Below are positions 11,931 through 52,002 of a stretch of 64,000 bases of DNA, piece by piece. A program made the position numbers and the translations under genes. The first letter of the stretch is position 1. Each line of letters begins with the position of its first letter. Under the pieces are notes generated by a model that was not told the DNA's origin, ran no database searches, and saw only the letters and a program-made list of their open reading frames with translations. Source of the stretch: Bolinopsis microptera (taxonomy: Eukaryota > Ctenophora > Tentaculata > Lobata > Bolinopsidae); NCBI RefSeq assembly GCF_026151205.1, contig NC_087072.1:1321375-1385374 (forward strand), written 5' to 3'.

Positions 11931-11935
11931 CAGTG

Positions 11936-17818: not shown

Positions 17819-17984
17819 GATAGATGACACATTTTACACATTGGTTTGGTTGTATTTTTAAGTGCTCCCTTATCAGTTATTTGTTGCTAAATCGCGATAA
17901 GCGAACGCGTGCTATTGTACATTTATTGTACATTGCTTGTATAAAACTCAAATAGTGTGTGTAACTGACATTTAAAGGTTCAAT

Positions 17985-19436
17985 ATGCAAGACAAGGAAA
18001 ACCTGAAATCAGTAAGCGATGATGCTAAGAAACGTGTACTTGGAAGCCTACTTAACAAAGCTGATGCCCCCAGCAAGAAGGTTCTCAGTGTGTATAGTTT
18101 CAGTGCAAGTTATAAGACCAATCTGAAAGATATGAAATCACTCACCGCAGTTCAACTAGAACCCTGTGCAATATTTCTAGGTTTTAATGTCAGAGATGGT
18201 GTGAAGAAACTGTACACGAATAAACAGACTCTATGTGATAGAATGATTCTCAAGATCGAGTCCTTGTTCGACATAGAATGCGAGGACTGTAACGATGTGT
18301 ACTGTAATGAACTGGGAAAAGAACCGCTCTTAAGATGCCGGCTATGCTTACAGGGCTCCCACGATTGTGAAGCCATGGCCGAAAAAGCCAAGACCTTCAA
18401 CGACCTCATTCAGAAAGGACTGCTTCCTTTAGGAGGATCTTGGCTCTGCTACGAATGTTCAAAAAAGAACGAAACACGCTCACTTCAACCTCCCCAGAAA
18501 CCTACCAAGAAAAGGAACACAGATAGTATAACAGATCTATCCACTATTAAAGAGGTTGAATCTGAGGTAGAGGGCGAGGGAAACGACGATGAAGATGAAG
18601 ATGAGGATGAGGATGAAGACAGGGAAAGCCCTAGAAGAGGTAGACATAATGATACCGAAAATAACCCCCAGATTTGCCGGGAATACACTATGAGGAAGTG
18701 TCCCCACGGCCTCACTGGCAAACGTCTCATTGGTGGTAAGAAATGCTCATACCAGCACCCCATCAGGTGCCGCTTTTACTCCAATTTCGGAGACGACAAA
18801 CGCAGAGGATGCAGGAATGGGAAGAAATGCACTTTTTTCCACCCTAAACTGTGCCGTAATTCAGTTGCGAATCACGTATGTTTAAACAGCGATTGTGGCT
18901 TCCATCATCTTAAAGGAACGGCCAGAAAGACTGTTGGAAACGTGAATCTCACTGACAGAAATCGCCTGCCTCAGCAGCAGCAGCCCAAAGATACGAGAAG
19001 AATAGAATTCAACACGAACAGAAGTTCCTGGCCGCCTCCTGGTGGTTATGATGTGGACAGAATGGGTAGTCTAAACTCCCTCAACACCCCCTACCCACCC
19101 ACTGTTGAATATCAGAAACCCCTCAGACAACGTAAAGACAGTACATCTGAGAGGGATAGTGCTTTTTTAGAGAAGCTCATGGAAAACATGAAAAACGGAA
19201 TTATAACCCAGATGAACTCCAAAATGGAGGAACTTCGAGGGCAAATTCCAGCCCTTGTCCAAGAGACACAACGGAGCCAGATGGACCCGAGATCACGCCA
19301 AACATCCTCTCAGCAAATCTCGACACAGTTCCCACCACCAGCACAGTTCTCAGCCCAAGTGCCACTCCCAAACCAGCCAATGCGGATGCCGATGCCACTA
19401 AACTTCATTCCCAACTATCAAGGATCTTGCTACTGA
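17985..19436 (+). CDS. retrotransposon ORF1: PHD-like plus CCCH zinc-finger nucleic-acid-binding protein
   Basis: ORF1 proteins bind element RNA and act in RNP formation. This 483-aa product has a PHD/treble-clef-like cysteine cluster at about residues 99-158 (C..C at 99/102, CRLCLQ, H..C, WLCYEC). An acidic run sits at about 198-213. Three CCCH-type zinc fingers lie at about 231-308 (CREYTMRKC..H..KCSYQH; CRFY..C..KCTFFH; CRNSV..CGFHH). A Q/P-rich tail follows. Cysteine/histidine spacing is intact and the frame is uninterrupted. PHD domains are known in CR1-type ORF1s, and the CCCH triplet is plausible for RNA binding. The first ATG, 166 bp inside the element, is the natural start. The stop TGA (19434) overlaps ORF2. 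Confidence 0.88.
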   Translation: MQDKENLKSVSDDAKKRVLGSLLNKADAPSKKVLSVYSFSASYKTNLKDMKSLTAVQLEPCAIFLGFNVRDGVKKLYTNKQTLCDRMILKIESLFDIECEDCNDVYCNELGKEPLLRCRLCLQGSHDCEAMAEKAKTFNDLIQKGLLPLGGSWLCYECSKKNETRSLQPPQKPTKKRNTDSITDLSTIKEVESEVEGEGNDDEDEDEDEDEDRESPRRGRHNDTENNPQICREYTMRKCPHGLTGKRLIGGKKCSYQHPIRCRFYSNFGDDKRRGCRNGKKCTFFHPKLCRNSVANHVCLNSDCGFHHLKGTARKTVGNVNLTDRNRLPQQQQPKDTRRIEFNTNRSSWPPPGGYDVDRMGSLNSLNTPYPPTVEYQKPLRQRKDSTSERDSAFLEKLMENMKNGIITQMNSKMEELRGQIPALVQETQRSQMDPRSRQTSSQQISTQFPPPAQFSAQVPLPNQPMRMPMPLNFIPNYQGSCY

Positions 19437-22400: not shown

Positions 22401-22458
22401 CATCACAAATAATTCTCTTCTGGAATGGACTCTACAAAAAGATCTAAGCCAGGAGTGA
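19427..22458 (+). pseudogene. retrotransposon ORF2: AP-like endonuclease plus reverse transcriptase, frameshifted
   Basis: The first part (to 21775, 782 aa) has the endonuclease blocks: LLNARSI at the start, TESW about 42-45, RKGGGCVLYV about 70-79, YRPP about 114-117, GDFN 151-154 and a later SDHRLVEL. The RT follows: YRPVSI, HGFRKKRSC, YLDYAKAFDKVDH and GVPQGTVLGP. At residues 702-705 the catalytic box reads FADG instead of FADD (codon GGC at 21539), removing one catalytic aspartate. A frameshift near 21770 then moves the C-terminal part into another frame (21772-22458: LGVLLSNDCSWSSHI, YCCPVWNP, SFGVKAAKLWNLLP). ORF2 overlaps the end of ORF1 in the -1 frame and has no in-frame ATG near its start. 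This copy cannot make a working polymerase. Confidence 0.9.
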
Positions 22459-27258: not shown

Positions 27259-28085
27259 ATGTCCTGGAACATTCAGGACAGTACAGGAGACGGATCTAAC
27301 AAATTTGAAAATAACGAATTTCTGACAATCCTCAAACAAGCAAACATTCTGTGTCTCCAAGAAACTAAGAAGCAGGTTAAAATCGAAGGATACCTTTCCT
27401 TTAATAGCAACCGCAAAAACTCTCGCTCAGGAGGGGTCTGCATTCTTGCTGAAAATGATTTAAGAAAAGGTGTTTCCTGTGTGCCTTGTAGTGAATCTGA
27501 CGATATTATTGTTGTTAAACTTGACAAAAACTTTTGTTAGCTTTATTTTGATCTATTTTTAGTATGTTATTATATTAGCCCTGCATATTCGTCCTATGTC
27601 AAGAAATATCCAGACTGTACTGCTAAGACCTTCTCTGCTCTTGACACCCTCTGTATTAGACTACGTCAAAAAGAGGCATATCTACGAATTATCAAAATAC
27701 CTGATGTTCGAAAAAGTCTGACAAGGTTTCGTATCAGCTGCCACAACCTCTACATTGAAAGTTGCAGATACGAAACCCCCCTTGTACCAAGTGAAGAACG
27801 TTGGTGCACCTACTGCTTTTTCAGCAAAGGGCTCAAGCCTATTGAGGACGAAAGTCACGTATTGATTGACTGTTTGCTCTACTCCTCAGTTAGGGAAAAA
27901 TTCAATTTCCATCCCCAAAACATTGTTGACCTAGTCGGTTTGCTCTCCAACAAAACTTTAGATCCTACCACACTCACTGCCACAGCAAGAGCAATCCATT
28001 CATTTCTCTCTGTGAACGAACATTATACAGCCTATTATAAGAGCCCAGACTTCCACTCAAATACTGGCAAGTGCATAATGCTATA
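27259..28085 (+). pseudogene. internally deleted non-LTR retrotransposon: endonuclease start fused to the C-terminal zinc-knuckle region
   Basis: One reading frame runs from MSWNIQ at 27259 to TAG after 28082, interrupted by a single in-frame TAG at 27538. The N-terminal part is endonuclease-like: SWNIQ, ILCLQETK and SRSGGVCIL, then YYISPAYSSYVKKYPD after the stop. At about 27655 the frame jumps from endonuclease (FSALDTLCI) directly to the extreme C-terminus. There it has the FRISCHNLYIESCRYETP and C-x2-C...H...C knuckle (WCTYCFF, ESHVLIDC) that ends many LINE ORF2s. The entire RT is missing. A partial second copy with the same C-terminus lies at 35600-36000. Confidence 0.8.
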
Positions 28086-28300
28086 GGACCTTAAAATAAA
28101 ATTGAACCATACAAACTCGATTTATCTATTTTTCTAAAACTAGCATTATATAACATTTCTAAATTATCCCTACACACTTGTAAATAATTAGAATTGTGTA
28201 ACCTAAATTATTTCAGAATTACAACTATTGTGTACTCAGTAAAGTAATTATCACTTTTGTATCCTTTGTATCCTTGTATCCTTGTATCCATGTCTTTATA
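28086..28300 (+). repeat. 3' part of the LINE-derived repeat, ending in TATCCTTG repeats
   Basis: 28146-28260 is nearly identical to 42383-42495. It ends with a short TGTATCCT-type tandem tail (about 28254-28294), which may be the element's microsatellite tail. Confidence 0.75.
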
Positions 28301-29184
28301 AAATCACTCACTCACAAAATTGCCGACCCAATATCTATTGAAGTGGCGAAGATCGGCCAGACCGAGTATTACCATCCCATCCTTCTAGAGTTCATCACAA
28401 GTAGCACCCACCTTGAAGATTTTTGACACCCAGACACACCCCATTGGCACACCCCAGCTCAACAAACTTTGGATATAATCTTACATGCTCCCGATTGTCC
28501 CGAAGGAATCCCTGTTTATCATCAGCACTTTCACTAGGTCACCAGCTTTTTCACTGAAATCATCAGCCTTTTCACTGAAGTCATCAATCAGCCCTTTCAA
28601 TAAAGATTTTAGCTCGTGTTCTAAACTACAAAACTTATCAAATTGTTCAAGTTCTAATAAAGCGATCACGACTGTTCTGTCAAAGCACTAGCAACTACTC
28701 AACTAGGAAGGTTCTTTAAAATTCTTTGAAGGGTCATAATTACTCAAATCTCTTGCTAACAATCAAGTTGTTGTTCCTAGTTCTACAATTAAACGAATAC
28801 AAAATTACAGCCTTTCAGGTTTACATTTTTTGATATCCAGCTCAACATACGGCTTTGATACCAATAATGGGTATATACCGATGATCGGTGTTAATAAATA
28901 TTTGATTATATTACCATGAAACTTAGTATTGAAGTTTAAACTCTTTCTTGTGTAAGAATAACCTAAAGAAAAACGTACTAGTGTACTGTTACCAGTTACG
29001 GAAAGCAACTATTTAATTAAATTGAAGATAAATAAACAGAATACAGATGCACGATCCACAATACAAATACCAACTTAATCGACGGACAAATTGAGGAATG
29101 AAAATTTCGTTTGGAAACGAGCTATATATAAGGCTAGGACGTAGCGCTCGACTCCAAATTGAAGTAAAATTAATACGCGATCTA
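28301..29184. other. no gene recognised
   Basis: A minus frame at 28481-28669 has a duplicated DDFSEKA heptad-like phrase in a helical, coiled-coil-prone peptide. It could be an ORF1 relic, but I cannot support it beyond composition. Confidence 0.35.
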
Positions 29185-35599: not shown

Positions 35600-36000
35600 T
35601 TGATGTTCGAAAAAGTCTGACAAGGTTTCGTATCAGCTGCCACAACCTCTACATCGAATTTCGAAAGGGGTAGATACGAAAGCCCCCGGCCCCCTTGTAC
35701 CAAGAGAAGAATGTTGGTACACTTACTGCTTTTTCAGCAAAGGGCTCAAGCCTATTGAGGACGAAAGTCACGTATTAATTGACTGTTTGCTTAACTCCTC
35801 AGTTAGGGAGAAATTCAACTTCCATCCCCAAAACATCACTGACCTAGCCGGTCTGCTCTCCAACAAAACTCTAGACCCTACCAAATTTACTGCCACAGCA
35901 AGAGCAATCCATTCAATTTTCTCTGTGAACGAACAATATACAGCCTATTATAAGAGCCCAGATTCCCACTCAAATACTGGCAAGTGCATAATGCTATAGC
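35600..36000 (+). pseudogene. second copy of the LINE C-terminal region, interrupted by a retrotransposon
   Basis: Closely matches 27694-28085: DVRKSLTRFRISCHNLY, the C-x2-C knuckle region and HSNTGKCIML. A small insertion and a frameshift lie near 35660-35700. After 36000 the similarity stops. It resumes at 42383-42510 with the same 3' part found at 28146-28260, so the 6.4-kb element between them landed in this copy. Confidence 0.85.
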
Positions 36001-36387
36001 ATAGTATCATATATTTTTTTTTTTGTTGGGGACTGGCCCGTGGTACCAGCCAATGTTTACTCAAAAAATATATATAATATCAATGGTAATAAGAAATTCA
36101 TCCCCGTGGGGCACATGCATAAATATAAAATGTAAAGGAAATCTCAAACTATTCAATTTAGATTCTACCGGTAAAGTATGCAATGAAGGTTTATAATTTA
36201 AAGTTTTATTTTCCAATGGTTAATAGGTAAAGATAAGAAAAGTAAAACAAGACTGAGCACTTCAAAATTTGTAGAATTTGTAACTTGATTTGAAATCGCG
36301 GCGATAAAAAAGAATGTCCTATGTTGGCAGTGTAATTGATGAGATATGCGACGTTTATTGAGTGATGCATAAGTGTGTGCATATAAT

Positions 36388-39300
36388 CTAAGATGTAGAG
36401 ACAAGGTTATTATCGGCATTTTGGTTTATGTTACGCTTTGATTTTCTTAGTCCTGTTATACAATATAACATGAAATTAGGCCAATCGTCTTCGATGTTTT
36501 CATTTTGCTGATCGATGAGCATAGTTTTTATACAAGTTTTGTAAATGTTCAGGTTAAATAGACTAGGCGGGGAAGTTGCTGCAACATTATATCGGTTTAT
36601 TGCTAATAATGGACCTTTAAAAAATACTGAGTTGTTGTAAGGGTGTTGACCATACTTTTCTGACCATTGTGTAGTGAGAATAGAATCCAGGTTAGTATTA
36701 AATAATGGTGCACTTTTGGGAATTGTTTTCTTGAGAGACAATGGTACTAGATTAGGAAAGTTTTTCAATTTATGCATTAAAATGAGTGCGTTCTTTACAA
36801 TGATACTGTGTACTGTCAATATTTTATGTGAATAAAAGCCAGACTTGGTACTTGCTGGGGGGATACCGTCCTTGTACCAGTAATTGACGAAACCAGGTAA
36901 TACTGCTCGAAGGCCCATTTTCTGTTTTACAAAAAGCGATTCAATATGAGACTTGGCAGCAAAACCCCATACAAGGCTGCAATAATTAAGGTGTGACTGC
37001 ACAAAACTTTGATAAATTTGAAGACGTGCTTCGAGAGGCAGATATTTTTTAAGTTTGTACATGACTCCTATGTATCTGGACATTTTCATTTTCATGGCAG
37101 AAATATGATGGGACCAGTTTAGTTTATCATCTATTATAACTCCTAAAAAACGGGCTTCTGTTTTTCTCTCAATTGTGACACCAGAAATTGCCACATCACG
37201 ATAATTAAGATTTCTTTGTCGAGAGAAGATCATATAATTTGTTTTCTTAAGGTTGAGAGCTAAACCATTATTATCTACCCATTTAACTAAAGCATCGCTA
37301 AGAGTTATTAGTTTATCGTAAACTTCATTAAGATTTTCTCCTATCAGGAAGATGTTGGCATCATCTGCGTACATAATGAAATTTGCTATATCTGATATTT
37401 GAGGTAGGTCGTTTATGTAGATTATAAAAAGTAAAGGTCCTAATATTGACCCTTGAGGCACGCCGTATAAAATTTGGTTGGTTGAAGATTTTGACGAGCC
37501 AATTGATACAAACTGTTTCCTGTTAGTGAGATATGACTTAAACCAGTTTAAGGCTTGACCCCTTATGCCGTAATGGTCCAGCTTGCGCAAGAGTATGGAA
37601 TGATCCACAAGGTCGAAAGCTTTGCTGAAGTCGATTAAAAGAAGTAAAGTTACCTGCTTTTTAGACATTGAATTAAGAATGGTGTCTTTTGCGTTGAGAA
37701 GAGCATGTTCACAAGACCTACCCGGGCGAAAACCGTATTGGTTTTCACATAGTATGCTGTATTTATCTAAAAAACTTATAACTCGGTTATGCATAAGCTT
37801 TTCAAATACTTTAGAGAAAGAAGCAAGAAGAGATATTGGCCTGTAATTTTTTATGTCAGATTTAGATCCACCTTTGTGAATTGGGACCACCTTCGCTTCT
37901 TTCAAAGCCTGTGGAAAGATCCCCTGTTCAAAAGAACTGTTGACAACGTGGGCTAGTACACTAGTAAAACTGGGACAGCTGTTAGCGATTTTTAGAGGTT
38001 CAATTTTAGTGTCTAGTGTGGCTTTATTCTTAAGCAGGTTTATGACGTCCTGAATTTCTGTGGCAGTGACTGGCTTTAAGTAAATACTACTTGGAGTGGC
38101 GTTGCGAAGTGTGCTATGGGTTCCACCAGGATCAAAAGTGGTCCTACTACTAATTTCAGACTTAATTTTAGGAGCGATGTTTGAGAAGTAATCGTTAAAT
38201 TTTTCTGCTACAGCTGCCGGAGTGCTGATTGAGCCGTCTTCGTCAGTCAGTTTAATTGAAGTAGGTTTAGATTTTTTCCTATTAAGAAGACTGTTTATCA
38301 TTTGCCACTGCTTCTTAGAATTTTCTTTGTTTTGCTCAAAAAATTTTTTGAAGTGCTTGTTTTTAGCTTTATCGATGTGTTTATTACAAAACTTCTTCAG
38401 ACGGTCATATTTACTGCGGTTACTATCAGATGGTTCCTTAACAAAATCATAATATGACTCATTTTTACGTTCTATAGCTTCTTCGAGCCAGGGCAGCATC
38501 CATGGTTTCGGATTAACACGTTCATTTTGTCTTCGTGATTGTCTTTTTGTGGGATAGGCAGACTCGTAAATCTTATTATAAGCCGTATTTAAATTATTGA
38601 ACTGTTCGTTGGCATCATTGGTATTGTTAAAAATTTCTGACCAACTTTCATCTGTAATTAAGTCTCTGAATTTTTGATTGTTGGTGTCGTTAAATCTACG
38701 TGTTTCAGTTTGAGATACATTTTGTGAGTTAGACGCAGAGCGGTAGCTGCTGGTTGGCGTGTTATCAAGATTTATTGTAGTGACTATTGCTAAGTGATCA
38801 GACATATCTGTCGTTAAGACGTTACAGCTTATTGTATCCTCAAGATTGTTTGTGTAGATGTGGTCAATAAGCGTGGCACTATGGTCCGTTAGGCGAGTTG
38901 GGCGTGATACAATTTGAATAAAACCGTAAGAGGACGCAATATCTATAATGTTCTGACATGCTTGGTCGCTGCTGTGCTTCAGTAAATCAAGGTTGAAATC
39001 TCCATGAAGCGTCATATGTTTACGGGTGTGTCTCCCTAGGTTGTGCAGCGTATTTTTGAAAATTTCTAGAAACGCTTCAGGTCTCCTAGCGGGAGAACGG
39101 TAAACATTGCCAATTATTTTCGTTCTGTTGTATCCTTTGCACTGATGGAGCTTGATAAATTGGAATTCGCCACTAGTATTAGTTGGTTCAGGGTTTGGAG
39201 TGAAAATATCAATTTTATCATAATCGACTACACGTTTGTGTACATAAGTGGCTAGCCCCCCACCTTTTCCAGATGGGCGAATTGGATCCTGGATAAATGG

Positions 39301-39861
39301 TTCATGAAATCCATCTAAGGTAACGTCGTTTATTCCGTTCGGTAATTTCCCTAAAGTGCAATTAGTTTCGTTAAAACACAATATATCATACTTATCATAA
39401 GTCTCAATATCATCACGTAGTTGATCTATATTCTTAATAAGGGATCTTATGTTCATAGAAAATGTTTTAAGTTGAGAGCAGGTAGATTTTTTCACGTTAC
39501 GTTGTTGTTTATACTGACAACTAGTTAGGAAAGATGAAATATTGCTCCAAGTTGAATCTTGATGCTCTTCGTTGGTCATGGCGTCGCCAATAAGATTAAA
39601 TCGACTATTCTGATCGTACGGATTAAATATGTCACTATTAAGTTTACTGTAGTCGTCATAGATTTCATAGTAGGTTGCGTGAAATCCAGGAATGATACTT
39701 TCACAGCAACTCGTACAGCCTAGATTATCCTTAAAACATTTGACATGGACATTACTTTGACACCATGAGCATGTGCGAATATTTCTAATAGAGTAACACC
39801 AGCCGCTGCAGCTTGAACATTTGATCTTTACTTTGTTTTCAGATGTAACAGTGGGTTCCAT
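36388..39861 (-). CDS. retrotransposon ORF2: zinc-binding N-terminus, AP-like endonuclease, reverse transcriptase
   Basis: The 1157-aa product nicks target DNA and reverse-transcribes element RNA. Residues 14-53 form a cysteine/histidine cluster (CSSC, CSWC, HVKCF, CTSC) resembling a degenerate PHD or treble-clef zinc module; its function is unknown. The endonuclease follows: N137 in SMNIRS, E165 in CFNETN, GDFN at 287-290 and SDH at 354-356. The RT has NYRPISLLA, YGFRPGRSCEHA, LIDFSKAFD (about 742-750), GVPQGSILGP (800-809) and YADD at 831-834. The thumb FLGVIIDDKLNWSHHI and SHLNYCSLVWG complete it. All catalytic residues I can check are present and there is no stop. The C-terminal tail continues about 250 residues past the RT. 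The ATG at 39861 lies directly before the zinc module and is the natural start. Confidence 0.93.
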   Translation of the reverse strand: MEPTVTSENKVKIKCSSCSGWCYSIRNIRTCSWCQSNVHVKCFKDNLGCTSCCESIIPGFHATYYEIYDDYSKLNSDIFNPYDQNSRFNLIGDAMTNEEHQDSTWSNISSFLTSCQYKQQRNVKKSTCSQLKTFSMNIRSLIKNIDQLRDDIETYDKYDILCFNETNCTLGKLPNGINDVTLDGFHEPFIQDPIRPSGKGGGLATYVHKRVVDYDKIDIFTPNPEPTNTSGEFQFIKLHQCKGYNRTKIIGNVYRSPARRPEAFLEIFKNTLHNLGRHTRKHMTLHGDFNLDLLKHSSDQACQNIIDIASSYGFIQIVSRPTRLTDHSATLIDHIYTNNLEDTISCNVLTTDMSDHLAIVTTINLDNTPTSSYRSASNSQNVSQTETRRFNDTNNQKFRDLITDESWSEIFNNTNDANEQFNNLNTAYNKIYESAYPTKRQSRRQNERVNPKPWMLPWLEEAIERKNESYYDFVKEPSDSNRSKYDRLKKFCNKHIDKAKNKHFKKFFEQNKENSKKQWQMINSLLNRKKSKPTSIKLTDEDGSISTPAAVAEKFNDYFSNIAPKIKSEISSRTTFDPGGTHSTLRNATPSSIYLKPVTATEIQDVINLLKNKATLDTKIEPLKIANSCPSFTSVLAHVVNSSFEQGIFPQALKEAKVVPIHKGGSKSDIKNYRPISLLASFSKVFEKLMHNRVISFLDKYSILCENQYGFRPGRSCEHALLNAKDTILNSMSKKQVTLLLLIDFSKAFDLVDHSILLRKLDHYGIRGQALNWFKSYLTNRKQFVSIGSSKSSTNQILYGVPQGSILGPLLFIIYINDLPQISDIANFIMYADDANIFLIGENLNEVYDKLITLSDALVKWVDNNGLALNLKKTNYMIFSRQRNLNYRDVAISGVTIERKTEARFLGVIIDDKLNWSHHISAMKMKMSRYIGVMYKLKKYLPLEARLQIYQSFVQSHLNYCSLVWGFAAKSHIESLFVKQKMGLRAVLPGFVNYWYKDGIPPASTKSGFYSHKILTVHSIIVKNALILMHKLKNFPNLVPLSLKKTIPKSAPLFNTNLDSILTTQWSEKYGQHPYNNSVFFKGPLLAINRYNVAATSPPSLFNLNIYKTCIKTMLIDQQNENIEDDWPNFMLYCITGLRKSKRNINQNADNNLVSTS

Positions 39862-40490
39862 TTATAACTAAATATTATGATTATGTTACTGATAGTATAT
39901 ACAACTATAGTTCAAATCAGATTCTTTCACGAGAACCGGAGGTCCTGTATGCTACAGAATCGTGATATGATTTAAAAGTAAATTATATTAAAATCGGATA
40001 ATTAAGTGAAATAAAGTGTCTTTATCTAGGGCCTTATCAGTATGATTTAAGTAACTGATTTGGCTAAAAAATAGAAATCGAATAAAGTGGTTGCTTTTGT
40101 GTTGTGTAGTTTTGTGAGGTGTTATTTGTATTTGATTTGTTTGTAGCGTTTACGTAATAAGGGACTATCGCACTGAACTTGAGTAATACTGAAGAGAACG
40201 CACTTGATTATTTATAGATTTGTATGTGAATTTTGAATGTTGTATAGAGTTATGAAATCTCATTGATTTAGGATGATACAGATTTGTAGAGTAAAATGTT
40301 TTGTGTGCGATCGGGTGATAAGAGATACTGATAATGGATGAACTTATCAGATAATGAGAAATATTCCACCAATCAGATCATTTCATTATATGATCTATCT
40401 TGGTAACGATCTGTTAAAGGTGGACTGGAAGTTGAGAAAAAATTGAATCGTATTTTTTAATCAAAATGGTATCAATGATTTGTAAAGCGC
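39862..40490 (-). other. inter-ORF spacer of the retrotransposon
   Basis: 629 bp without an ORF between ORF1 and ORF2. This is unusually long for tightly spaced CR1-type ORFs. It could hold an internal promoter, splice site or ribosome entry signal; no specific motif was recognised. Confidence 0.5.
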
Positions 40491-42260
40491 TCAGCTTCGG
40501 TTATATCTGGAGAGACTGTTAGGCTTGTGGTGATAGAGCCACTCACAGTTCCTGTGACGTCTCTGTTCAGATCCACATAACTTGCCAACGCAGTTAACAA
40601 GTTCATGTGCCATTACCCTTTGCACCTCGTGATATAAGTGGATGCCATGTCTGTCGTTGCAGTCCCATACGTAGTATGAGTTAACACGCTTGATCACGGC
40701 ATGGGCATCGAAAAAACTCAGATTTGGAATATCCTTAGCCAGGTTCAACATTATGATATTAAAAGCGTCAATCTCTGCATTCAACCAGTTAAATTTAGTC
40801 ATAGATAAAGCACAAAACATAAACTCGGTATTCTTGTTATTGTTACAAGAGTCTATAAAACGGGGACAGAAATTGTCCGCAAGACTCCTGGCCGACTGCC
40901 CATACCTAGCTAGGTCATTAATGCCGCAGGAAAGTACGACTGCTTTAGAATGTTTGAACTCATGTTGATGTTCCAGTGAGTTCACTAGTTGATAGTTAAG
41001 GCGCTTTTGACATCGGTGGCCAGGTATCTGGTCGAACAGCCATTCTGGTGTTTCTCGGTGTATTGAGTCGTGAATGAAGAGGACTCTGGAGTGACGGGAC
41101 GTTGGTGACTGTATCTGTGTAGGTGGTGCAACAGGCGGTACCCGAGTAGGGGCTGCAGGTGCTGGCAAGGCCGTGGGATCAGGCTGTTTCAACTTGCGAA
41201 GAGTGAACGAGATTCGTGGCTGCCTTAACATAGGATCACGTTCAATGCCGTGCTGCCAGTGGTTCTGATCAGATCGAGACATTGCAAAGACAGAGCCGTG
41301 CTCAAGCGGGATGTTATGCTCAACGAAAGGGCCTGTCGACGTTGACATTCTCATAATTCTGGTAGAGCCAAATGATGCAGTGTAAATCAGACTATCTTCT
41401 ACAATGCTAGATTCGCTGTCACTATGCAATGGAATACCAACTGACCCGTCCTTATAGTAAGTACAGAGGCAGGTGTAGTTCGTGGGTGTAATGTCAGGAT
41501 CGGATTTATGCAAACAATCAAAAATGCGCTGTAGGACAGGTGGCAAGGGCTTATCATGGGTTGCACGGTGGTTGGTTCTGCCATAACTGTAAGGTACCAA
41601 GCCAAAATATGACGTTGAACGGCCCCCCGGGTGTTTCATGTTAAAGTCAAGCTCGCGGTAGATTTCATCAAAAGAAAGTTCACCAAAGTCACAGTCCAAA
41701 AATCTTACCGGAGGTGGTGGGTTAGGTATACTTTCTACTTCACCGGAAGGGGAGAGAGTCTGTGGAGAACTACTGCTAGCTGCTTCAACGATGAGAGAGG
41801 TCTGCTTCCTGGACTCTTCAGAGACTTCCTGGATCACAGTGCAGGCTCGTTCCGTGATGCTGTTGACCGCCTTCTCAACCTCTTCATTAACGGTACATGA
41901 AATGAGTTTTAGACTCGCAGTTAATTTGTTCATTGTCTCGTCAGCGTCTAGGGCACATTGGCCTAATAAATGTTTCCGTAAAAAAGAAATTTTGTTGTCC
42001 GTTGTGCTTGCTTTAGTAGCACTTTTCGAAAGGAGGCGGAGTCTTTCGAACTCAAAATCTAAATCGGGAGCAGGCAGTAAGCTTAACAAGTGAAGGCATG
42101 TTGTTGCTGCAAACGTGTAATTCCCTGACACCCCAAGCCCCAACATACCGATAGGAGGTGCTTCTGAGTCAGCGATTGACTCAGAAGCAGCTTTAGAAGC
42201 TAGTTTCTTCCTCTGGGATGATGTAGGTGTAGAGGTATTAGGTGTAGAATTTCGTCGCAT
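40491..42260 (-). CDS. retrotransposon ORF1: AlkB-like 2OG-Fe(II) dioxygenase fused to an SGNH hydrolase-like domain
   Basis: 589 aa. Residues 1-190 are low-complexity and helical, probably for oligomerisation. Residues about 205-358 match the AlkB fold of ALKBH2/3 type: the substrate-side FGLVPYSYGR motif (219-228) and the iron ligands H279-x-D281 in GIPLHSDSE. The strand TASFGSTR and the GSVFAMSRSDQNHWQHGIE segment with the third ligand H337 follow. R349-x5-R355 (RISFTLR) serves 2-oxoglutarate and substrate binding. A proline-rich linker follows (360-390). Residues about 391-565 are SGNH-like: LFIHDSI (397-399 in place of GDS), GIND (446-449) and D536-x-H538 in NDRHGIHLYH. SGNH domains are established in CR1-type ORF1s. 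AlkB demethylates or repairs alkylated nucleic acid in cells and in some plant RNA viruses. Repair of the element's RNA is my inference. Confidence 0.88.
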   Translation of the reverse strand: MRRNSTPNTSTPTSSQRKKLASKAASESIADSEAPPIGMLGLGVSGNYTFAATTCLHLLSLLPAPDLDFEFERLRLLSKSATKASTTDNKISFLRKHLLGQCALDADETMNKLTASLKLISCTVNEEVEKAVNSITERACTVIQEVSEESRKQTSLIVEAASSSSPQTLSPSGEVESIPNPPPPVRFLDCDFGELSFDEIYRELDFNMKHPGGRSTSYFGLVPYSYGRTNHRATHDKPLPPVLQRIFDCLHKSDPDITPTNYTCLCTYYKDGSVGIPLHSDSESSIVEDSLIYTASFGSTRIMRMSTSTGPFVEHNIPLEHGSVFAMSRSDQNHWQHGIERDPMLRQPRISFTLRKLKQPDPTALPAPAAPTRVPPVAPPTQIQSPTSRHSRVLFIHDSIHRETPEWLFDQIPGHRCQKRLNYQLVNSLEHQHEFKHSKAVVLSCGINDLARYGQSARSLADNFCPRFIDSCNNNKNTEFMFCALSMTKFNWLNAEIDAFNIIMLNLAKDIPNLSFFDAHAVIKRVNSYYVWDCNDRHGIHLYHEVQRVMAHELVNCVGKLCGSEQRRHRNCEWLYHHKPNSLSRYNRS

Positions 42261-42382
42261 GATCAGTATAAATCACAAGCTCAGTGCGATAAGAAAAGGT
42301 AGATTACAGAGGAAAAATATTGATGCGTAATGAAAGTAGTAAAATGATAAGTGAAAATGCGTAATGAAAGTAGTAAAATGAT
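42261..42382 (-). promoter_or_regulatory. 5' UTR of the full-length element with a tandem repeat
   Basis: The ~32-bp phrase containing GCGTAATGAAAGTAGTAAAA occurs twice in direct tandem (about 42327-42348 and 42359-42381) at the element's extreme 5' end. Tandem 5' units often carry the internal promoter of LINEs, but no promoter motif can be named here. Confidence 0.45.
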
Positions 42383-42510
42383 ATAACATTTCTAAATTAT
42401 CCCTACACATTTGTAAATAATTAGAATTGTGTAACTTAAATTATTTCAGAATTACAACTACTGTGTACTCAATAAAGTAATTATCACTTTTGTACCCTAT
42501 CCTTGTATCC
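42383..42510 (+). repeat. continuation of the interrupted LINE repeat
   Basis: Nearly identical to 28146-28260. It resumes the repeat broken off at 36000. Confidence 0.8.
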
Positions 42511-42870
42511 TTGAAACCTACACCCTGTCCCCCATCAGGGTTCGCAGTTCCTCTTTAAAGTTTGTCCCAACTTCTCTCAGTAACATAGACAAATAGCTTT
42601 GGCTCAGTCGGCCTTGCTGTGCTCTACCATGCATTGGTTCGCATAAGACTAAATCACTGGCAAGCAGGATGCCTGATGCAGTGTCCCGCCATTTTTAATC
42701 TCATGCTCCGTAACTTGTTTGACAGCTTAGGTAGGCTACCATACAAAGTAACATTGCTGACCTTGTCCTTTAAAGGTCAGCAAACTTTTCTCTTGAGCCT
42801 TTGTCAGGGTTTCTGAACTGTAGAGTAGTACCGATTTGCAAGCCACAATTTAATATTCGTTAATTATAAA
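42511..42870. other. no gene recognised
   Basis: A frame at 42619-42816 shows no domain I can name. Confidence 0.4.
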
Positions 42871-44145
42871 GGGTGGCCCAAAAGTAACTGCCCACATGCA
42901 ACCCTTTAATTACTCACGTAATTCTTCTTAAAATTGCACAGAAATTTCAGAGATTATAGATATGGGTAAAACTTAGATTACCTGAAAGTTTCGTCAAATT
43001 TAATTAATTACAGTGGGTGTGGCACGCCAATCCCTCTTTTTCGCTATTGTCACCATAAAGTGATAACGATTTCAGCTAGGAACTTCAAAGTTTCTAGACA
43101 CATTTGAGATTACTGATTGGGTGACGAAATCACTGATTATGTGCCAAGATCACATATCTGCAATATCTTAAAAGGGTCATAACTCGGTTAAATTGTGAAC
43201 AACCAACTTGAAATTTTGGGAAAGCACTTCAATTATCAAGCCAAATGTGTCTAGAGACTTTGAAGTTCCTAGCTGATAGCGTTCTTACTTTATAATTACT
43301 AGCAGGAAAATAATTATTACCTAGTATTTAATTCGCGTTTTTGACACCACTTGGGGGTCCAAATTTTGGGCTCTAAAACCATTATTCCTTGGCCAATTTT
43401 TTATTTTTTCATGCTGATTCGGAGGCCATTAAAGCATTTGACCCAGTTAAAAAAGTTTCAGTTGTATATCTTTTACGGTTTTTGCGGAAAGTCGCGTTAA
43501 AGTTGATGCCGTGGTGTAAGTAAAATGGTACGGATATACACGCTAACACCTTACTCTTGATCAGATTGGGTGACGAGATCACTGATTGAGTGCAGAGATC
43601 ACTGACTGAGTGCTCGGATCACGTATCCGATGAATTTTGAAATGGTCATAACTCAGCCAAATTTTGAACAATGAACTTGAAACTTTGGGAAAGGTTTTAA
43701 ATTATCAAGCCAAATGTGTGCAAAAAATTTGGAGTTCTTAGCTTAAAGCGTTCTCATTTTATGAAGACAATAGTGAAAAAGAGGGAGTGTCACGCCACGC
43801 CCACTGTAATTGGGCGTGGCTTACGAAACTTTCAGGAAATCTAAGTTTGACCCATATCTATAATCTCTGAAATTTTGGTGCAATTTGGAGACTAATTACG
43901 TGAGTTATTAAGAGGTTGCGTGTGGGTAGTCACTTATGGGCCACCCTGTAGTAAGATGGTAACAATAGTGAAAAAGAGGGAGTGGTGTGCCACACCTAAT
44001 GTAATTAATTAGATTTTACGAAACTTTCAGGAAATTTAAGTTTAACCCATATCTGTAATCTCTGAAATTTCTATGCAATTCTAAGAAGAATTACGTGAGT
44101 TATTAAAGGGTTGCGTGTGGGCAGTTACTTCTTGATCACCCTGTA
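42871..44145. mobile_element. foldback/MITE cluster with long inverted arms (mariner-like ends), just upstream of AK7
   Basis: The left arm starts GGGTGGCCCAAAAGTAACTG (42871). An inverted right arm ends GGGCCACCCTGTA at 43950, and a second right arm (43963-44145) ends ATCACCCTGTA. The arms are homologous for about 190 bp (AATTTCAGAGATTATAGATA and CCTCTTTTTC blocks). Inside, about 43105-43305 and 43560-43765 are direct repeats (GGGTGACGAAATCACTGATT; AATTATCAAGCCAAATGTGT). ACAGGGTG...-type ends next to TA are mariner-like. There is no transposase. AK7's ATG lies 144 bp after the second right arm. Confidence 0.75.
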
Positions 44146-44288
44146 TCTTGGCTTATTTGAATTATATGAAGGTAGTTTCAAATTGTAGAAATGGGAACAT
44201 TAGTCGTGTTCATTATGTATTTCTTTTCGTGATTATCAAGTATTTACAATTTAAACATTTGAATGCTTTTAGGGGCCCTTGTAACAAA

Positions 44289-47200
44289 ATGGCAAGAGTT
44301 TTCATCAACAATGTTGACAGTTACACTGGAGAGCAGCTTGCTAAGGTACTTTCAGAAATATTTATTTTCTCTCCTACAAATTACAATCTATATTATCAAG
44401 ATTCACCCAAATAACTTATCTATAGTTTTAGATATTTCGTCTGCTTGTGCTTGACATAACATTAAAATAGTAAAGATGCTTGACTGACTTGTTTGTTTGT
44501 TCAGATATTTTCGAACACTGTAGTTGGTTCAACTGTAGAGGAAGCTGTTGATGACGATGAGGTCTCACAACGTGCCCAAGTTAAATACGAAGTAGTTGGT
44601 ACTCTCTCAGACAGGACTGCTGCGAAACCATCTTGTGTCACCGAGATTGTTGAGGTAGGTTGCTCTTTCAGAGCAATAATCATTTTTGAAGTCTATGTCA
44701 CAAAATTTCGGTGTCACGTTCTCTAATGAAATAGTCAATTAGGAGGGGAAGTAGTGGTAGATACGACTAAGAGGAGGGAAGAAGTAGGAGGGGAAGTAGT
44801 GGTAGATACGACTAAGAGGAGGGAAGAAGTAGGAGGGGAAGTAGTGGTAGATACGACTAAGAGGAGGAAGAAGTAGGAGGGGAAGTAGTGGTAGATACGA
44901 CTAAGAGGAGGGAAGAAGTAGGAGGGGAAGTAGTGGTAGATACGACTAAGAGGAGGGAAGAAGTAGGAGGGGAAGTATTGGTAGATACGACTAAGAGGAG
45001 GGAAGAAGTAGGAGGGGAAGTAGTGGTAGATACGACTAAGAGGAGGAAGAAGTAGGAGGGGAAGTAGTGGTAGATACGACTAAGAGGAGGGAAGAAGTAG
45101 GAGGGGAAGTAGTGGTAGATACGACTAAGAGGAGGGGAGAAGTAGGAGGGGAAATAGTGGTAGATACGACTAAGAGGAGGGGAGAAGTAGGAGGGGAAGT
45201 AGTGGTAGATACGACTAAGAGGAGGGAAGAAGTAGGAGGGGAAGTAGTGGTAGATACGACTAAGAGGAGGGAAGAAGTAGGAGGGGAAGTAGTGGTAGAT
45301 ACGACTAAGAGGAGGGAAGAAGTAGGAGGGGAAGTAGTGGTAGATACGACTAAGAGGAGGGAAGAAGTTGGAGGGGAAGTAGTGGTAGATACGACTAAGA
45401 GGAGGGAAGAAGTAGGAGGGGAAGCAGTGGTAGATACGACTAAGAAGAGGGAAGAAGTAGGGGGGGAAGTAGTGGTAGATACGACGCATTTATCTAAATA
45501 TAGATATCTCGCAGGCTAAGAATGTAGACGACCTCCTTACAGCTCTCATCCAGTGCGATGTTGTTGTGTACGATGTTTCAACTTCTGAGTCCGAGGTTGA
45601 GGACTGCTTGCTGGCTTGTAATGGTATGCTTATCACAGAAACGTGATATTTGTGTTTCTTGATTTCTATTTTTGAGACTCTAGAAAATGTCCACTTTTAA
45701 CCGTATTTTACTTTCTAATTATTTTCAACTTCAGCCCTTCATGAGCAGATTGCCAACTTCAAAAGCCCAAAAACTTTTATCTGTTTATCAAGTGTTATGA
45801 CTTGGTGCAAGACGAAACCCAACGAACCGGTTAGATTGATGCTACAGCTTATTTTCTTTTCCTATTCAATCAATAGTTACAACAAGTATTGAAATTCCTC
45901 ACAAATTTCCTGATTTTCTTACATTTCCTATTAAAAGTTACTCATCTCTCTGTTTTAGGCTATCGAGGTTAGTGTATTTGACAGGTAAAACGTTCAGTGG
46001 CGTAAAATAAAATGTGTTGCTTGTAAAAACAAATTGCAGCAGTTTCTAACTGTAGTTATTATTTGTATATTACTATGGTTTACAGTGCATTATTTGTATA
46101 TTACTATGGTGTAAAGTGCATAAAAATTGCACTGAAGGGGGCCCTTAGAAAATTCAGATATGGGTCCCTCATTTGACCATCAATTACGGTTTCCTGATTA
46201 TTCGGCTGAATGAAGGAGATTGTATTATAGAAGTCCTTTAGAAGTGTTAGCGCACCATCTTTGTGAAATTCGTCCGTGTTGCATTAACACATGTTATGTA
46301 AACAAAGCACTGATAACTGAAACTATTTTCAAGCTTTTTTGTGAGACTGAAATGATTTAGGACGAACCGGAACAGCCATTCACAGAAGAAGATTATCGCA
46401 GAAGAAAACCCCATCCTAATTTCAAGAGCGAGATTAAGTGAGTTGAGAAAACTGATAATAATTTTTTGAATCCAGTATGACTTGATCTTTTTTCTGATTC
46501 ATTTTAATCCAAATTATCTCTAACTACTTCGCTCATTTCAGTGTCGAAAAACAAGTTATCAAGTTGGGCAAAACGGTGAGTTCGATCGGTCGCCAATTTA
46601 ATACTGTGTTTACGTGGGACGCGAAGATAATTTTGTGCATATTATTGTTTGTCTAAATGCGCGGTTACCTAGCAACCTGACGATAAACTGCGGACGCGCG
46701 CAGCATCGAGATACAACTATCTTTTTGCCTTCAAATAAGTAACTAGCTGTGAAAACATACTAACATGATAGTGATAAGATTGAGAAATAAGAGAATTATA
46801 TAGAATCCTCGGCCCTCGCATGTCAGCTTCAAATACATTTCGGATACTGGATAGTCACTGTTTTAAGTGAACGGAATACGACGATGAATATTGAATGAGT
46901 TTGTCTTATTATGTTTTATCTCAGGACAAAACCAGGTTCCTGACTTATGTTGTGGCTGCGGGACTTCCGTACGGAGGAAAAGAAGACATTTTCCATTACT
47001 TCTTCAAGGTTCTTCATCTCAATATTTCCTTTTGTTTCATGGAAATTATGATATCGAAATAATGACTAGAGTCTAGACATCATTTTCAATATATGATGAA
47101 TTGTCTACGATTAATCATTAATGTTTCTGTTAACAAAACAGCATTTAACTCTCCTAACCCAAGGTGGCTTGGCACGGTGACACAGAGGCTCTGAACATCA

Positions 47201-50200
47201 TTGGAACAGGAGAGAACATCATCCCCTCAATACATGTCCAGGATCTCAGTAACATTGTTACCTCTGTTGCAGATGCTAAACCCAAAACTCGTTATATTGT
47301 AGCTGTTGATGATTCGATGAACTCTATGACTGATATTATCACTGTAAGTCGCGCTCATTTGCACGGTTCTACTGATATTACTAGCTTATGATATACATGG
47401 AACATTAACAGTTCCGGCCTTTGGAACACCAGCATTTTCATCGGATAGAGTTAATAGAAACCTTGCGTGTCAAAACTATAAATTTTAGCAAAACTAATTC
47501 ATGAAGAAAACATAATGAAACCTTTGACAGTGTATAAGCAAGAACCTGGGGACGGGAAACGTGATGAACATAACCCGAGAAGAAGCGCTTCTAATCCCGG
47601 AGATTAGTCAGAGAGTGTTTGATATTCTCTCTGTCAACTTAAGAATGGAGGGTACCTGGATTAAAGAGGGGGCAAAGTTTGAGTGGGTATCAGAGGTAAG
47701 CTAACTGGTTAAAGAGAAATTGTAAAAAGTGTGATTAATAAATTGCCGAGTTTAGGTTTTAAAGTGGGATTGTTCGGAGTTCACTAGTATTCATACGTAT
47801 TTCAGACAGGAATCCTTGAGAATATAACAACAGTTGTAGACGAGTACAAGAGATCACGAGGACTTCTGCCAATAAGACTGTGTGTAATGGGACCACCAGC
47901 TGCAGGGAAGTCTCTGATAGCCTCCCAGCTCTGCCAACACTACAAACTGCATCACCTCAAGATAGCTGACGTTATACAGCAATCCATAGAAAAGCTGGTT
48001 AGTGTGCCTACATTCATATAGCTGGGTGTTTAAACTTATAGGTCCCAACCACTGCATGACTGCAGGGTTAAACATTTCATATCAGCAGTAACTAGACAAG
48101 TTTACTGTAATGAAAAACGGCCAGTTCTGGCGTCTGGACTTGCAATCAGCTTACACAACATATAACATTAATGCCCTCAGAAAAACATCACGCTAGCTCA
48201 TGTAGGTATACTGGTAGCCAGTTGTGTACAGTAAAACCCCGATTTACCGCGAAGTTTGGGGGAAAGAAACAACCGCGGTAAATCGGGGTTCGCAGTAATT
48301 TGGAGGTTTTGATTGTTCACATTGTGCATGTTAAGCCCAATTAAATTTGGGAAAAGGAAATAGCCGTGGTAAATTGTGGTTTACGGCAAATCTGGGCACT
48401 GTAAATCGGGGTTTTACTGTAGTTCATCGTGATGTAAAATGTATGGAAGCAGTCGTGGAAACTTGTAGTGCAAGCACTGTGCACTGTGCTGTACGAATAG
48501 TGAATACCCATGTAACATTGTACCCTGTTCAGGAGAAGCAGGCAGCTAGAGCGGAGTCTGAGGAAGGAGAGGAGGATGACGAGTCAGCCCAGCAGGCTCA
48601 GGAGACCCTGGACTTGCTGAACGAGAGTAAACAGGAGAATAATGGTAAGAGTACTGAGGAGTGAGGTCCTACATGGCAGGTTAACTTCCAACACTTTATC
48701 TGGAATTGATTTTATGTGATTTACCTACTTATACTTCACTTTTAGATCGATACGAAGACCAGTACATTATCCAGTTCTTCACGGAGAAGTTGCTTTCTAT
48801 GCCGTGTCAGAACCAAGGTTTTGTGATGGACGGGTTCCCCAAGACCTACAGTCAGGCTAAAGAGCTGTTTGGAAATAAGGAGGAGGCGGAGGACGAGGAC
48901 GCACCCAGATTGGAATTCAACTCTAAAATCATGCCAGGTCAGTTAGAGAGACTATATTATCAAGTAGAGTTTCCAGTTAGGTTTAGTGTTTTCAACTCTA
49001 AGATCATGCCAGGTCAGTTAGAGAGTATATATTATCAAGTAGAGTTTCCAGTTAGGTTTAGTGTTTTCAACTCTAAGATCATGCCAGGTCAGTTAGAGAG
49101 TATATATTATCAAGTAGAGTTTCCAGTTAGGTTTAGTGTTTTCAACTCTAAGATCATGCCAGGTCAGCTAGAGAGAATATATTATCATGTAGAGTTTCCA
49201 GTTAGGTTTAGTGTTTTCAACTCTAAGATCATGCCAGGTCAGTTAGAGAGAATATATTATCATGTAGAGATTCCAGTTAGGTTTAGTGTTTTCAACTCTA
49301 AGATCATGCCAGGTCAGTTAGAGAGACTATATTATCAAGTAGAGTTTCCAGTTAGGTTTAGTGTTTTCAACTCTAAGATCATGCCAGGTCAGTTAGAGAG
49401 ACTATATTATCTTGTAGAGTTTCCAGTTAGGTTTAGTGTTTTCAACTCTAAGATCATGCCTGGTCAGTTAGAGAGACTATATTATCAAGTACAGTTTCCT
49501 GTTAGGTTTAGTGTTTTCAACTCTAAGATCATGCCAGGTCAGTTAGAGAGAATATATTATCAAGTAGAGTTTCCAGTTAGGTTTAGTGTTTTCAACTCTA
49601 AGATCATGCCAGGTCAGTTAGAGAGAATATATTATCAAGTAGAGTTTCCAGTTAGGTTTAGTGTTTTCAACTCTAAGATCATGCCAGGTCAGTTAGAGAG
49701 ACTATATTATCAAGTAGAGTTTCCAGTTAGGTTTAGTGTTTTCAACTCTAAGATCATGCCAGGTCAGTTAGAGAGAATATATTATCAAGTAGAGTTTCCA
49801 GTTAGGTTTAGTGTTTTCAACTCTAAGATCATGCCAGGTCAGTTAGAGAGACTATATTATCAAGTAGAGTTTCCAGTTAGGTTTAGTGTTTTCAACTCTA
49901 AGATCATGCCAGGTCAGTTAGAGAGACTATATTATCAAGTAGAGTTTCCAGTTAGGTTTAGTGTTTTCAACTCTAAGATCATGCCAGGTCAGTTAGAGAG
50001 AATATATAATCAAGTAGAGTTTCCAGTTAGGTTTAGTGTTTTCAACTCTAAGATCATGCCAGGTCAGTTAGAGAGACTATATTATCAAGTAGAGTTTCCA
50101 GTTAGGTTTAGTGTTTTCAACTCTAAGATCATGCCAGGTTAGTTAGAGAGAATATATAATCAAGTAGAGTTTCCAGTTAGGTTTAGTGTTTTCAACTCTA

Positions 50201-52002
50201 AGATCATGCCAGGTCAGTTAGAGAGACTATATTATCAAGTAGAGTTTCCAGTTAGGTTTAGTGTTTTCAACTCTAAGATCATGCCAGGTCAGTTAGAGAG
50301 AATATATTATCAAGTAGAGTTTCCAGTTAGGTTTAGTGTTTTCAACTCTAAGATCATGCCAGGTCAGTTAGAGAGACTATATTATCAAGTAGAGTTTCCA
50401 GTTAGGTTTAGTGTTTTCAACTCTAAGATCATGCCAGGTCAGTTAGAGAGAATATATTATCAAGTAGAGTTTCCAGTTAGGTTTAGTGTTTTCAACTCTA
50501 AGATCATGCCAGGTCAGTTAGAGAGAATATATTATCAAGTAGAGTTTCCAGTTAGGTTTAGTGTTTTCAACTCTAAGATCATGCCAGGTCAGTTAGAGAG
50601 ACTATATTATCAAGTAGAGTTTCCAGTTAGGTTTAGTGTTTTCAACTCTAAGATCATGCCAGGTCAGTTAGAGAGAATATAGTATCAAGTAGAGTTTCCT
50701 GTTAGGTTTAGTGTTTTCAACTCTAAGATCATGCCAGGTCAGTTAGAGAGAATATATTATCAAGTAGAGTTTCCAGTTAGGTTTAGTGTTTTGTTCCTGA
50801 AACCGATCAGCGAAGTATTTTGCTATCTTTTGTAACTAATAAACAAGAGTCTGGTGTTAAAATTAATATTTCAGAGGTGGTAATCTCGCTGGATGCGGAA
50901 GACGACTTCCTGAAAAAGCGAATTATGAACCTGCCGGAATCAGTTGTAGCAGGAACTCACAATACAGAGGACCTGTTCCTAAAGCGACTAGCTGAGTTCA
51001 GGGCCATCAACACAGACGATCAGACTGTGCTGAACTACTTTGACGAGCTCGAGGTTCACCCTGAGCATCTCAATATTGCAGCTGATACTTCCTCTAACAT
51101 GTCCCAGGTTATACACATCACATATAATATGTTACACATAACATAACATACACACATCTTTGTTATAGACAAAGATCGGACGATAGTTTTTTTACTCGAC
51201 AACAAGATTTTTATAGAAATAGAATTCTACAATGATATAATCCATCGATTCTTTCTGGTTTGACAACTGATATCCCAGGTGATGGAGAAAATTGTAAAGA
51301 CTGTTGGTAAGCCCAGGAACTATGGTCCTACTCAAGAAGAGCAGTTAGAACTTGAACGGCTCGGAATGGAAAAGAAAATCAAGAAAGAAGCTCTGGAGAA
51401 GTTGGAACTTCAGAGGAAAGAAGAGGAGGAAAAGAAGGAGACACAACGCAGAAAAGAAGAGTGGGTGAGTGGAAGATCGCGTGTAATCTTTTGTTGGAAT
51501 TGGATGAAGTTGAATATTGCTAGATGCTAAATGTACCTGATTATATAATTGCACATATTATTTCTCAGTTTAAGTTGTGACAAATAAATAGTCACCTGAT
51601 ATGATATTATGTCTCCTGATAGGATATTATCACATCAATGTGCTGTATAGTAGTGACGCTAAATTGTTTCCCAGGCAACCCGTGTAAAAGAGGTGAAGGA
51701 GCAGGAGGAGGAAGTGCTGCAAGCTCAGAGCTACCCTCTGAGAAACTACCTGATGAAGCATGTCATGCCCACTCTTAACCAGGGTCTTATTGAAGTGTGC
51801 AAAGTTAGACCTGAGGACGCTATTGATTACTTGGTAAGTTGGTAGAGCAGTTTTCTAACAGACACCCACTTATTTGTTAAGTTATAGATAAAAAGTACTA
51901 CTATCTTATCTGTACGAGATGATAGAGTAACCTTACTGAATACTGATAACGTATTCCCACCAGGCGGAGTATTTGTTCGAGCACAACCCACAAGTGGATT
52001 GA
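44289..52002 (+). CDS. AK7: adenylate kinase 7 (axonemal), 16 exons
   Basis: Complete gene, about 687 aa. Exons: 44289-44345, 44505-44654, 45515-45623, 45735-45829, 46361-46437, 46542-46575, 46925-47008, 47164-47343, 47531-47695, 47806-47997, 48533-48644, 48746-48937, 50875-51107, 51279-51464, 51675-51833 and 51964-52002. All introns are GT-AG and the phases agree. The N-terminal half is the epimerase-like region characteristic of AK7 ([39 protein letters not shown]). The kinase has a P-loop GPPAAGKS, then [11 protein letters not shown], the lid-side [12 protein letters not shown] and [16 protein letters not shown] charged coiled coil follows. The C-terminus is a Dpy-30 motif ([20 protein letters not shown]...[12 protein letters not shown]). 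AK7 acts in nucleotide balance of motile cilia and flagella. Introns carry a 45-bp minisatellite, a Tigger-like MITE and a 75-bp minisatellite. Exon 12 plus its array forms a long open frame that is not itself a gene. Confidence 0.94.
44741..45484 (+). repeat. 45-bp minisatellite in AK7 intron 2
   Basis: About 16.5 tandem copies of a purine-rich 45-bp unit (GGAGGGGAAGTAGTGGTAGA + TACGACTAAGAGGAGGGAAG...). A few copies lose one G. The + strand is almost pure purine apart from the ATACGACT segment. It ends 30 bp before exon 3. Its open frames ([15 protein letters not shown] repeats) are a by-product of a unit length divisible by three. Confidence 0.95.
48229..48419. mobile_element. pogo/Tigger-like MITE in AK7 intron 10
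   Basis: Inverted ends CAGTAAAACCCCGATTTAC and GTAAATCGGGGTTTTACTG are perfect over 19 bp. TA flanks both sides (48227-48228 and 48420-48421). It is 191 bp, non-coding. A further CGCGGTAAATCGGGGTTCGC copy lies inside at about 48273-48292. End sequence and TA duplication fit the pogo/Tigger group. Confidence 0.88.
48916..50792 (+). repeat. 75-bp minisatellite carrying an AK7 exon end and its 5' splice site, ~25 copies
   Basis: Each 75-bp unit holds the last ~22 nt of AK7 exon 12 (TTCAACTCTAAGATCATGCC + AG) followed by ~53 nt of intron starting GTCAGTTAGAGAG. The CAG|GTCAGT donor therefore recurs every 75 bp from 48937/48938 to 50737/50738 (25 sites). Units stay in frame with exon 12 until a TAG at about 50140; another TAG lies near 50682. 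Two main unit variants (GAGACTATATT and GAGAATATATT) are intermixed. The true exon 13 begins at 50875. Confidence 0.95.

Follow-up and report, generated by a model that had tools for sequence, protein, structure and literature searches.

Introduction

A stretch of 64,000 nucleotides from the genome of the ctenophore Bolinopsis microptera, hereafter the window, contains an open reading frame (ORF1) in which an AlkB-type oxygenase domain is joined to an SGNH-fold domain beside a reverse transcriptase gene. Does such a frame really belong to a retrotransposon, and what could an oxygenase do there? The initial annotation took it for the ORF1 of a LINE and suggested the removal of methyl marks (m1A, m3C or m6A) from the element's RNA or cDNA. 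The AlkB–SGNH fusion indeed lies within ORF1 of a multi-copy LINE, the parts of which are listed in Table 1.

Table 1. Positions of the LINE and its parts in the window
Feature	Position	Strand	Basis
Whole LINE insertion, A-tail included	36014..42383	minus	7 other whole copies with different flanks, read ends
5′ end, 27-nt unit twice	42323..42383	minus	direct repeat 42323–42349/42357–42383, 100%
ORF1, 589 aa	40491..42260	minus	frame, protein relatives, genome copies
Predicted long helix, residues 87–157, possible coiled coil	41790..42002	minus	AlphaFold model
AlkB (2OG-Fe(II) oxygenase) domain, residues 180–360	41181..41723	minus	profile match, residues, predicted fold
SGNH-fold domain, residues 390–567	40560..41093	minus	predicted fold, block residues
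ORF2, 1157 aa, with endonuclease and reverse transcriptase (YADD); N-terminus Cys-rich by eye	36388..39861	minus	
ORF2 endonuclease, residues 136–356	38794..39456	minus	Exo_endo_phos 7e-07; GDFN, SDH motifs
ORF2 reverse transcriptase, residues 667–910	37132..37863	minus	RVT_1 1.8e-36; YADD at 831
3′ A-tail, 11 A, after ...GTACCACGGGCCAGTCCCCAAC	36014..36024	minus	3′ end reading

The LINE insertion and its copies

About 6.35 kb at 97.8–99.8% identity is common to the window LINE and seven copies (L009, L011–L015 and L017) with different flanks; three more copies, L010, L016 and L018, are incomplete. The 5′ end was placed within 42377–42383 by comparison of copy ends, and the number of 27-nt units varies among the 11 copies whose 5′ ends were compared. 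The 3′ end, readable in 10 copies, is ...CCACGGGCCAGTCCCCAACAA in all of them; in seven, a run of at least eight A follows directly. Dispersed A-tailed copies with different flanks, together with an ORF2 carrying endonuclease and reverse transcriptase, are features of a LINE. Long direct or LTR-like repeats at the ends were found neither by the repeat comparison of the window nor by that of the copy ends, and a Pfam search of ORF2 gave endonuclease and RVT_1 and no integrase; the window element does not have the LTRs and the gag-pol with integrase of Ty3/Gypsy elements.

The flanks of the window LINE align with another copy of an older repeat, located within 27501–28400 and free of the LINE. 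Compared with this copy, the insertion site is devoid of 58 bp of target and has 14 extra bases beside the LINE tail. Words of 7 bp, candidate target-site duplications, were found at both junctions in two of 10 copies (L015 and L017), a length covered by chance expectation in that search. The older repeat itself is represented in the window by two fragments, 27541–28086 and 35604–35999 (plus strand). The LINE was inserted where the latter fragment ends; by eye, the first resembles ORF2 of the L054-type LINE considered below.

A search of 264.65 Mb of the genome (232 contigs) gave at least 76 ORF1 matches, a lower bound with 74 of 789 candidates scored. Among them are at least 10 full-length or nearly full-length stop-free copies at 97–100% identity, including that of the window, at least 10 copies of a second subfamily at 61–62% (8 of 10 without stops) and many further matches at 33–39%. 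No related loci were found in viral_contigs and genome_contigs.

Of the 23 loci L009–L031, all but L025 (22 of 23) have an ORF2 match downstream of ORF1 and on its strand. This, together with the whole-element copies, confirms that ORF1 adjoins an endonuclease/reverse transcriptase frame within one insertion. The order of the two frames, ORF1 upstream of ORF2, was annotated correctly; the strand was corrected, as the element is on the minus one. ORF2 is broken or cut short in several loci, for example, L010, L013, L014, L016, L018 and L024. Among ATG-begun frames of at least 250 aa, which the listing covered, six of the 11 loci of subfamily A (the window and L009–L018) retain ORF1 and ORF2 at full length, namely the window, L009, L011, L012, L015 and L017. 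Judging by these loci and by the near-identical stop-free ORF1 copies, the family is young. Protein P0122 of another ctenophore, Mnemiopsis leidyi, is among the 120 ORF2 relatives listed (55%). An indirect linkage of ORF1 and ORF2 through P0009 and P0070, found on contigs of the same size (8,339 bp), is superseded by these direct loci; two other same-size pairings (4,376 and 4,389) were coincidences, as neither length would accommodate ORF1 and ORF2 together.

Just upstream of the LINE, a MITE-like DNA element with long terminal inverted repeats (191 nt, 89%) occupies 42866–44146, and long tandem arrays are situated at 44642–45575 and 48685–50682 (built of a 45-nt unit and of a coding-like one). 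Another LINE at 17976–22458 (plus strand) has a Cys-rich ORF1, CCCH-like by eye, with no Pfam match at 0.1 and no AlkB; its ORF2 is divided between two frames. A host gene frame, COQ9 (Pfam 8.2e-32), was recognised at 2011–2859 on the minus strand.

Domains of the ORF1 protein

The annotation of ORF1 as a single uninterrupted frame with all AlkB signature residues proved correct: the iron triad HxD...H is H279, D281 and H337, and the R-x5-R motif for 2-oxoglutarate is R349 and R355. An AlkB-type double-stranded β-helix, the fold on which that annotation depended, was predicted for the domain. The helical region preceding it was modelled with moderate confidence (AlphaFold pLDDT of 41–82 by 10-residue block).

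All five iron and cofactor residues are kept in 10 of 10 relatives of family 1, with identity down to 34%. The more distant family 2 (120 proteins listed of 152) has H279 and D281 in 119/120 and H337, R349 and R355 in 120/120. The active site is also kept in one representative from each of six subfamilies and in a seventh. When compared with AlkB entries, the family-1 profile (10 relatives) matched ALKBH3 at 1.2e-23, ALKBH2 at 3e-18 and, among the others listed, a DNA 6mA demethylase at 4.5e-06 and ALKBH8 at 0.042; ALKBH5 was not among its matches at E <= 0.1. The family-2 profile, built from 40 of the 120 listed proteins, gave 3.9e-25 for ALKBH3, 1.9e-23 for ALKBH2, 5.7e-05 for E. coli AlkB and 0.012 for ALKBH5.

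ALKBH2 and ALKBH3 are m1A/m3C demethylases, and ALKBH3 prefers single-stranded DNA or RNA. Because of the affinity to these enzymes, m1A and m3C fit better than m6A as substrates. The ORF1 domain differs from both in its fusion to SGNH, with 22–28% identity over the domain, and is separate in a phylogenetic tree from the cellular ALKBH2/3-like sequences of this genome. At the place of D194 of ALKBH3, 8 of 10 family-1 proteins have Ser or Asn and two have Asp, and the substrate choice may therefore differ.

The SGNH fold was predicted for the C-terminal domain, and the block residues S399, G446, N448 and H541 are present, but the Asp of the DxxH motif (position 538) is absent. Thus, the fusion claimed in the initial annotation stands, while the SGNH part of the window lineage is without a canonical residue. 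In family 1, S399, G446 and N448 are found in 10/10 proteins each, His 541 in 8/10 and Asp 538 in 0/10, being replaced by H, N or R. Family 2 is different: both the Asp and the His of DxxH are present in 120/120 listed proteins, and residues corresponding to S399, G446 and N448 in 120, 118 and 120 of them. Owing to the loss of Asp, the window lineage was not accepted as having a proven active SGNH esterase, and its SGNH domain probably serves for binding or for contact with a membrane or partner rather than for classical triad hydrolysis. The family can evidently retain the fold after a classical catalytic residue has gone. At the same time, D536, two residues before position 538, is nearly invariant in family 1 and might stand in for the missing Asp, so that inactivity is unproven.

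A comparison of the window copy with subfamily B speaks for constraint on AlkB and so for the demethylase function: dN/dS is 0.086 for AlkB, 0.086 for SGNH and 0.27 for the N-terminus, at dS values of 1.6–2.8 that are near saturation (2.8 for AlkB). For close copies (a set without L018, the ORF1 of which is broken), where all counts are tiny, AlkB values are 0.14 (window and L009), 0.34 (window and L012) and 0.48 (L012 and L017), but also 1.29 (window and L017; nine nonsynonymous and two synonymous changes) and 0.90 (subfamily-B copies L019 and L025; nine and three). Such values are mixed, not low throughout, and count against the demethylase function discussed below.

AlkB and SGNH domains in other mobile elements

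The fusion is no isolated oddity of this ORF1: it recurs in ten LINE lineages and, with its domains the other way round, in a Helitron-type element. The ten lineages of this genome with an AlkB ORF1 and an ORF2 are A to G, L052, L053 and L054. ORF2s of lineages A to G have 30–84% identity between lineages, and those of L052 and L053 about 28% to their best ORF2 relatives. Lineage E (L030) has a Pfam match to AlkB and none to GDSL at 0.01, the SGNH residues being present nonetheless. The three loci L052–L054, picked from the list of AlkB matches in the genome, all have an AlkB and SGNH ORF1 followed by an ORF with similarity to endonuclease or reverse transcriptase; the GDSL match of L054 is weak (0.0077), and its downstream ORF contains the endonuclease part alone within the piece examined. 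The ten include a lineage found inside L016, where an AlkB-GDSL ORF1 adjoins its own ORF2 and also continues, without a frame change, a truncated ORF2 of subfamily A.

The L054 element (L054:1252-5401) has an 843-aa ORF1 in which AlkB, located in the first half, is separated by a long spacer from a weak SGNH match at the C-terminus; the endonuclease-type ORF2 follows. In the tree, its AlkB type, near-identical in L040, L041, L042 and L051, clusters with cellular ALKBH2/3. The window itself harbours a degraded second AlkB–SGNH ORF1 of family 2 at 11350–12430 (minus strand): the best tblastn match of its AlkB part is P0187 (30%), and P0249 and P0247 match its SGNH part, though in different frames.

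At least 151 matches to PF13532 were found in the genome (a lower bound with 150 of 587 candidates scored). Many are in open frames of about 370–890 aa, among which certain lengths recur (551, 611, 646 and others); six others are in frames of 2,200–3,400 aa. Inspection by eye and the tree both suggest that three of the 19 short loci examined, L033–L035, are cellular ALKBH2/3 genes. This tree (144 columns, 41 rows, many weak inner nodes) comprises 8 LINE ORF1s, the 19 short loci, one Helitron piece, four family-1 and nine family-2 proteins; a bootstrap of 99 separates cellular ALKBH2/3, represented by three sequences, all from this genome, together with the L040 type from the remaining mobile AlkB domains.

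The Helitron piece, L032 (G000:C10:16874500-16880500), is 6 kb of a giant frame that spans at least 1,999 aa and has the order SGNH – AlkB – DUF6570 – Helitron_like_N; near-identical AlkB domains occur in L037, L038 and L043. Judged by these domains, L032 is a putative Helitron-type element carrying AlkB and SGNH in an order reverse to that of the LINE ORF1.

Comparison with known systems

Some plant RNA viruses contain AlkB domains in their replicase polyproteins. They resemble the window LINE as genetic parasites with AlkB and are set apart from it as RNA viruses. A closer case is that of Ty3/Gypsy (Ogre-related) elements of Phalaenopsis orchids, retroelements that have likewise acquired an AlkB-type demethylase domain (PMC9289625). 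These plant LTR elements measure about 25 kb and encode AlkB in an extra ORF (PMC9289625), whereas the window element is a 6.4-kb LINE with AlkB of ALKBH2/3 affinity inside ORF1 and fused to SGNH.

Types of ORF1 described in two papers on LINEs include RRM, zinc knuckle, PHD, coiled-coil and esterase (PMC3905857, PMC4120745). According to these papers, Type IV ORF1s of CR1/L2-type LINEs, such as zebrafish ZfL2-1, have a coiled coil (or a zinc finger/leucine zipper) and an esterase, and share with the window element a helical N-terminus and an SGNH-fold domain (both predicted for the latter), poorly conserved linkers and an ORF2 with endonuclease and reverse transcriptase (PMC3905857, PMC4120745). 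Unlike them, the window ORF1 has AlkB ahead of SGNH and, in its lineage, no DxxH Asp. Neither of the two mentions an oxygenase, and PMC4120745 does not mention AlkB. The initial remark that no described LINE ORF1 with AlkB was known holds for the best matches listed in the open-licence PMC literature. Within this scope, we regard the AlkB–SGNH ORF1 as a new ORF1 type in a known kind of element.

Probable function of the AlkB domain

LINE ORF1 proteins bind the RNA of their element. Common reverse transcriptases are hindered by both m1A and m3C, and the reverse transcriptase of R2 comes from a non-LTR retrotransposon. This enzyme is impeded by m1A, and treatment with AlkB stripped m1A and m3C, after which most 3′ tRNA halves were captured better and intact tRNAs changed modestly (PMC12140624).

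In our opinion, there is about an even chance that the AlkB domain of this multi-copy LINE, a predicted oxidative demethylase of ALKBH2/3 type, removes m1A and m3C that block reverse transcription from the RNA template and from single-stranded cDNA. The ORF1 protein would multimerise through its N-terminus and bind the element RNA like other ORF1 proteins, which would bring the enzyme onto the template while ORF2 copies it at the target site. With Fe(II), O2 and 2-oxoglutarate, the domain would convert m1A and m3C into A and C, and the reverse transcriptase could run on past the demethylated bases; both the template RNA and the new single-stranded DNA may be cleaned in this way during target-primed copying.

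Erasure of m6A, a host regulatory mark, from the element RNA with escape from host RNA surveillance seems unlikely. The orchid AlkB protein binds RNA and demethylates in vitro, and its role in a host–element conflict was proposed (PMC9289625). However, the profile matches are to ALKBH3 and ALKBH2 and not to the m6A eraser ALKBH5, and human L1 retrotransposition is promoted by m6A and suppressed by ALKBH5 (PMC7873242), a gain that weakens the m6A reading. On these two grounds, m6A was rejected as the first-choice substrate.

Less probable still is action on DNA, when 6mA or alkylation damage would be removed from cDNA, new insertions or target DNA and the copy would be protected or kept unsilenced. 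Structures of ALKBH2 and ALKBH3 were solved with methylated DNA, as their titles indicate, the DNA 6mA demethylase is the next-best match of the family-1 profile, and the same AlkB domain is present in the Helitron-type element, the class of which moves as DNA. Knockout of Alkbh1 in mouse cells increased 6mA at the 5′ ends of young L1 along with other repressive marks, as summarised in a review (PMC4982230). LINE ORF1 proteins, by contrast, mainly handle RNA before target-primed copying.

We assign a slim chance to the view that the AlkB fold is a mere module for binding RNA or single-stranded DNA in place of the missing RRM and does not need catalysis. It agrees with the structure of ALKBH3 solved with single-stranded DNA, with the neighbouring SGNH domain, which kept its fold after losing the canonical Asp, and with the esterase-containing ORF1 proteins of RepBase, none of which has RRM or other structured RNA-binding domains (PMC3905857), but the invariance of the five iron and cofactor residues in all 10 close relatives, and their near-invariance in the 120 distant ones listed, argues against it. 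Finally, since AlkB domains normally occur in cellular proteins, putatively including L033–L035, ORF1 might be taken for a cellular AlkB gene of the host or for a frame that adjoins the LINE by chance. This is refuted by the near-identical whole two-ORF copies at different sites and by the adjacency of AlkB ORF1 to ORF2 in ten lineages.

Conclusions

Returning to demethylation of m1A and m3C as the preferred function, we find it quite possible, though slightly less so than for the single element, that the AlkB–SGNH ORF1 represents a distinct and widespread class of LINE ORF1, an RNP protein with its own template-cleaning demethylase. At least ten LINE lineages would be armed with it and, as the AlkB and SGNH pair is common to Helitron-type elements, demethylation may be a general weapon with which mobile elements in this genome counter blocking or marking by methyl groups.

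The intact AlkB active site in a LINE ORF1 makes a role of ORF1 beyond RNA coating testable in vitro and raises the question of whether the element repairs or erases methyl marks on its own template. If this is true, the case of the orchid LTR elements would be extended to animal LINEs and to many of their lineages, and it would suggest that the limit set on retrotransposition by base methylation is strong enough to favour elements encoding their own eraser.
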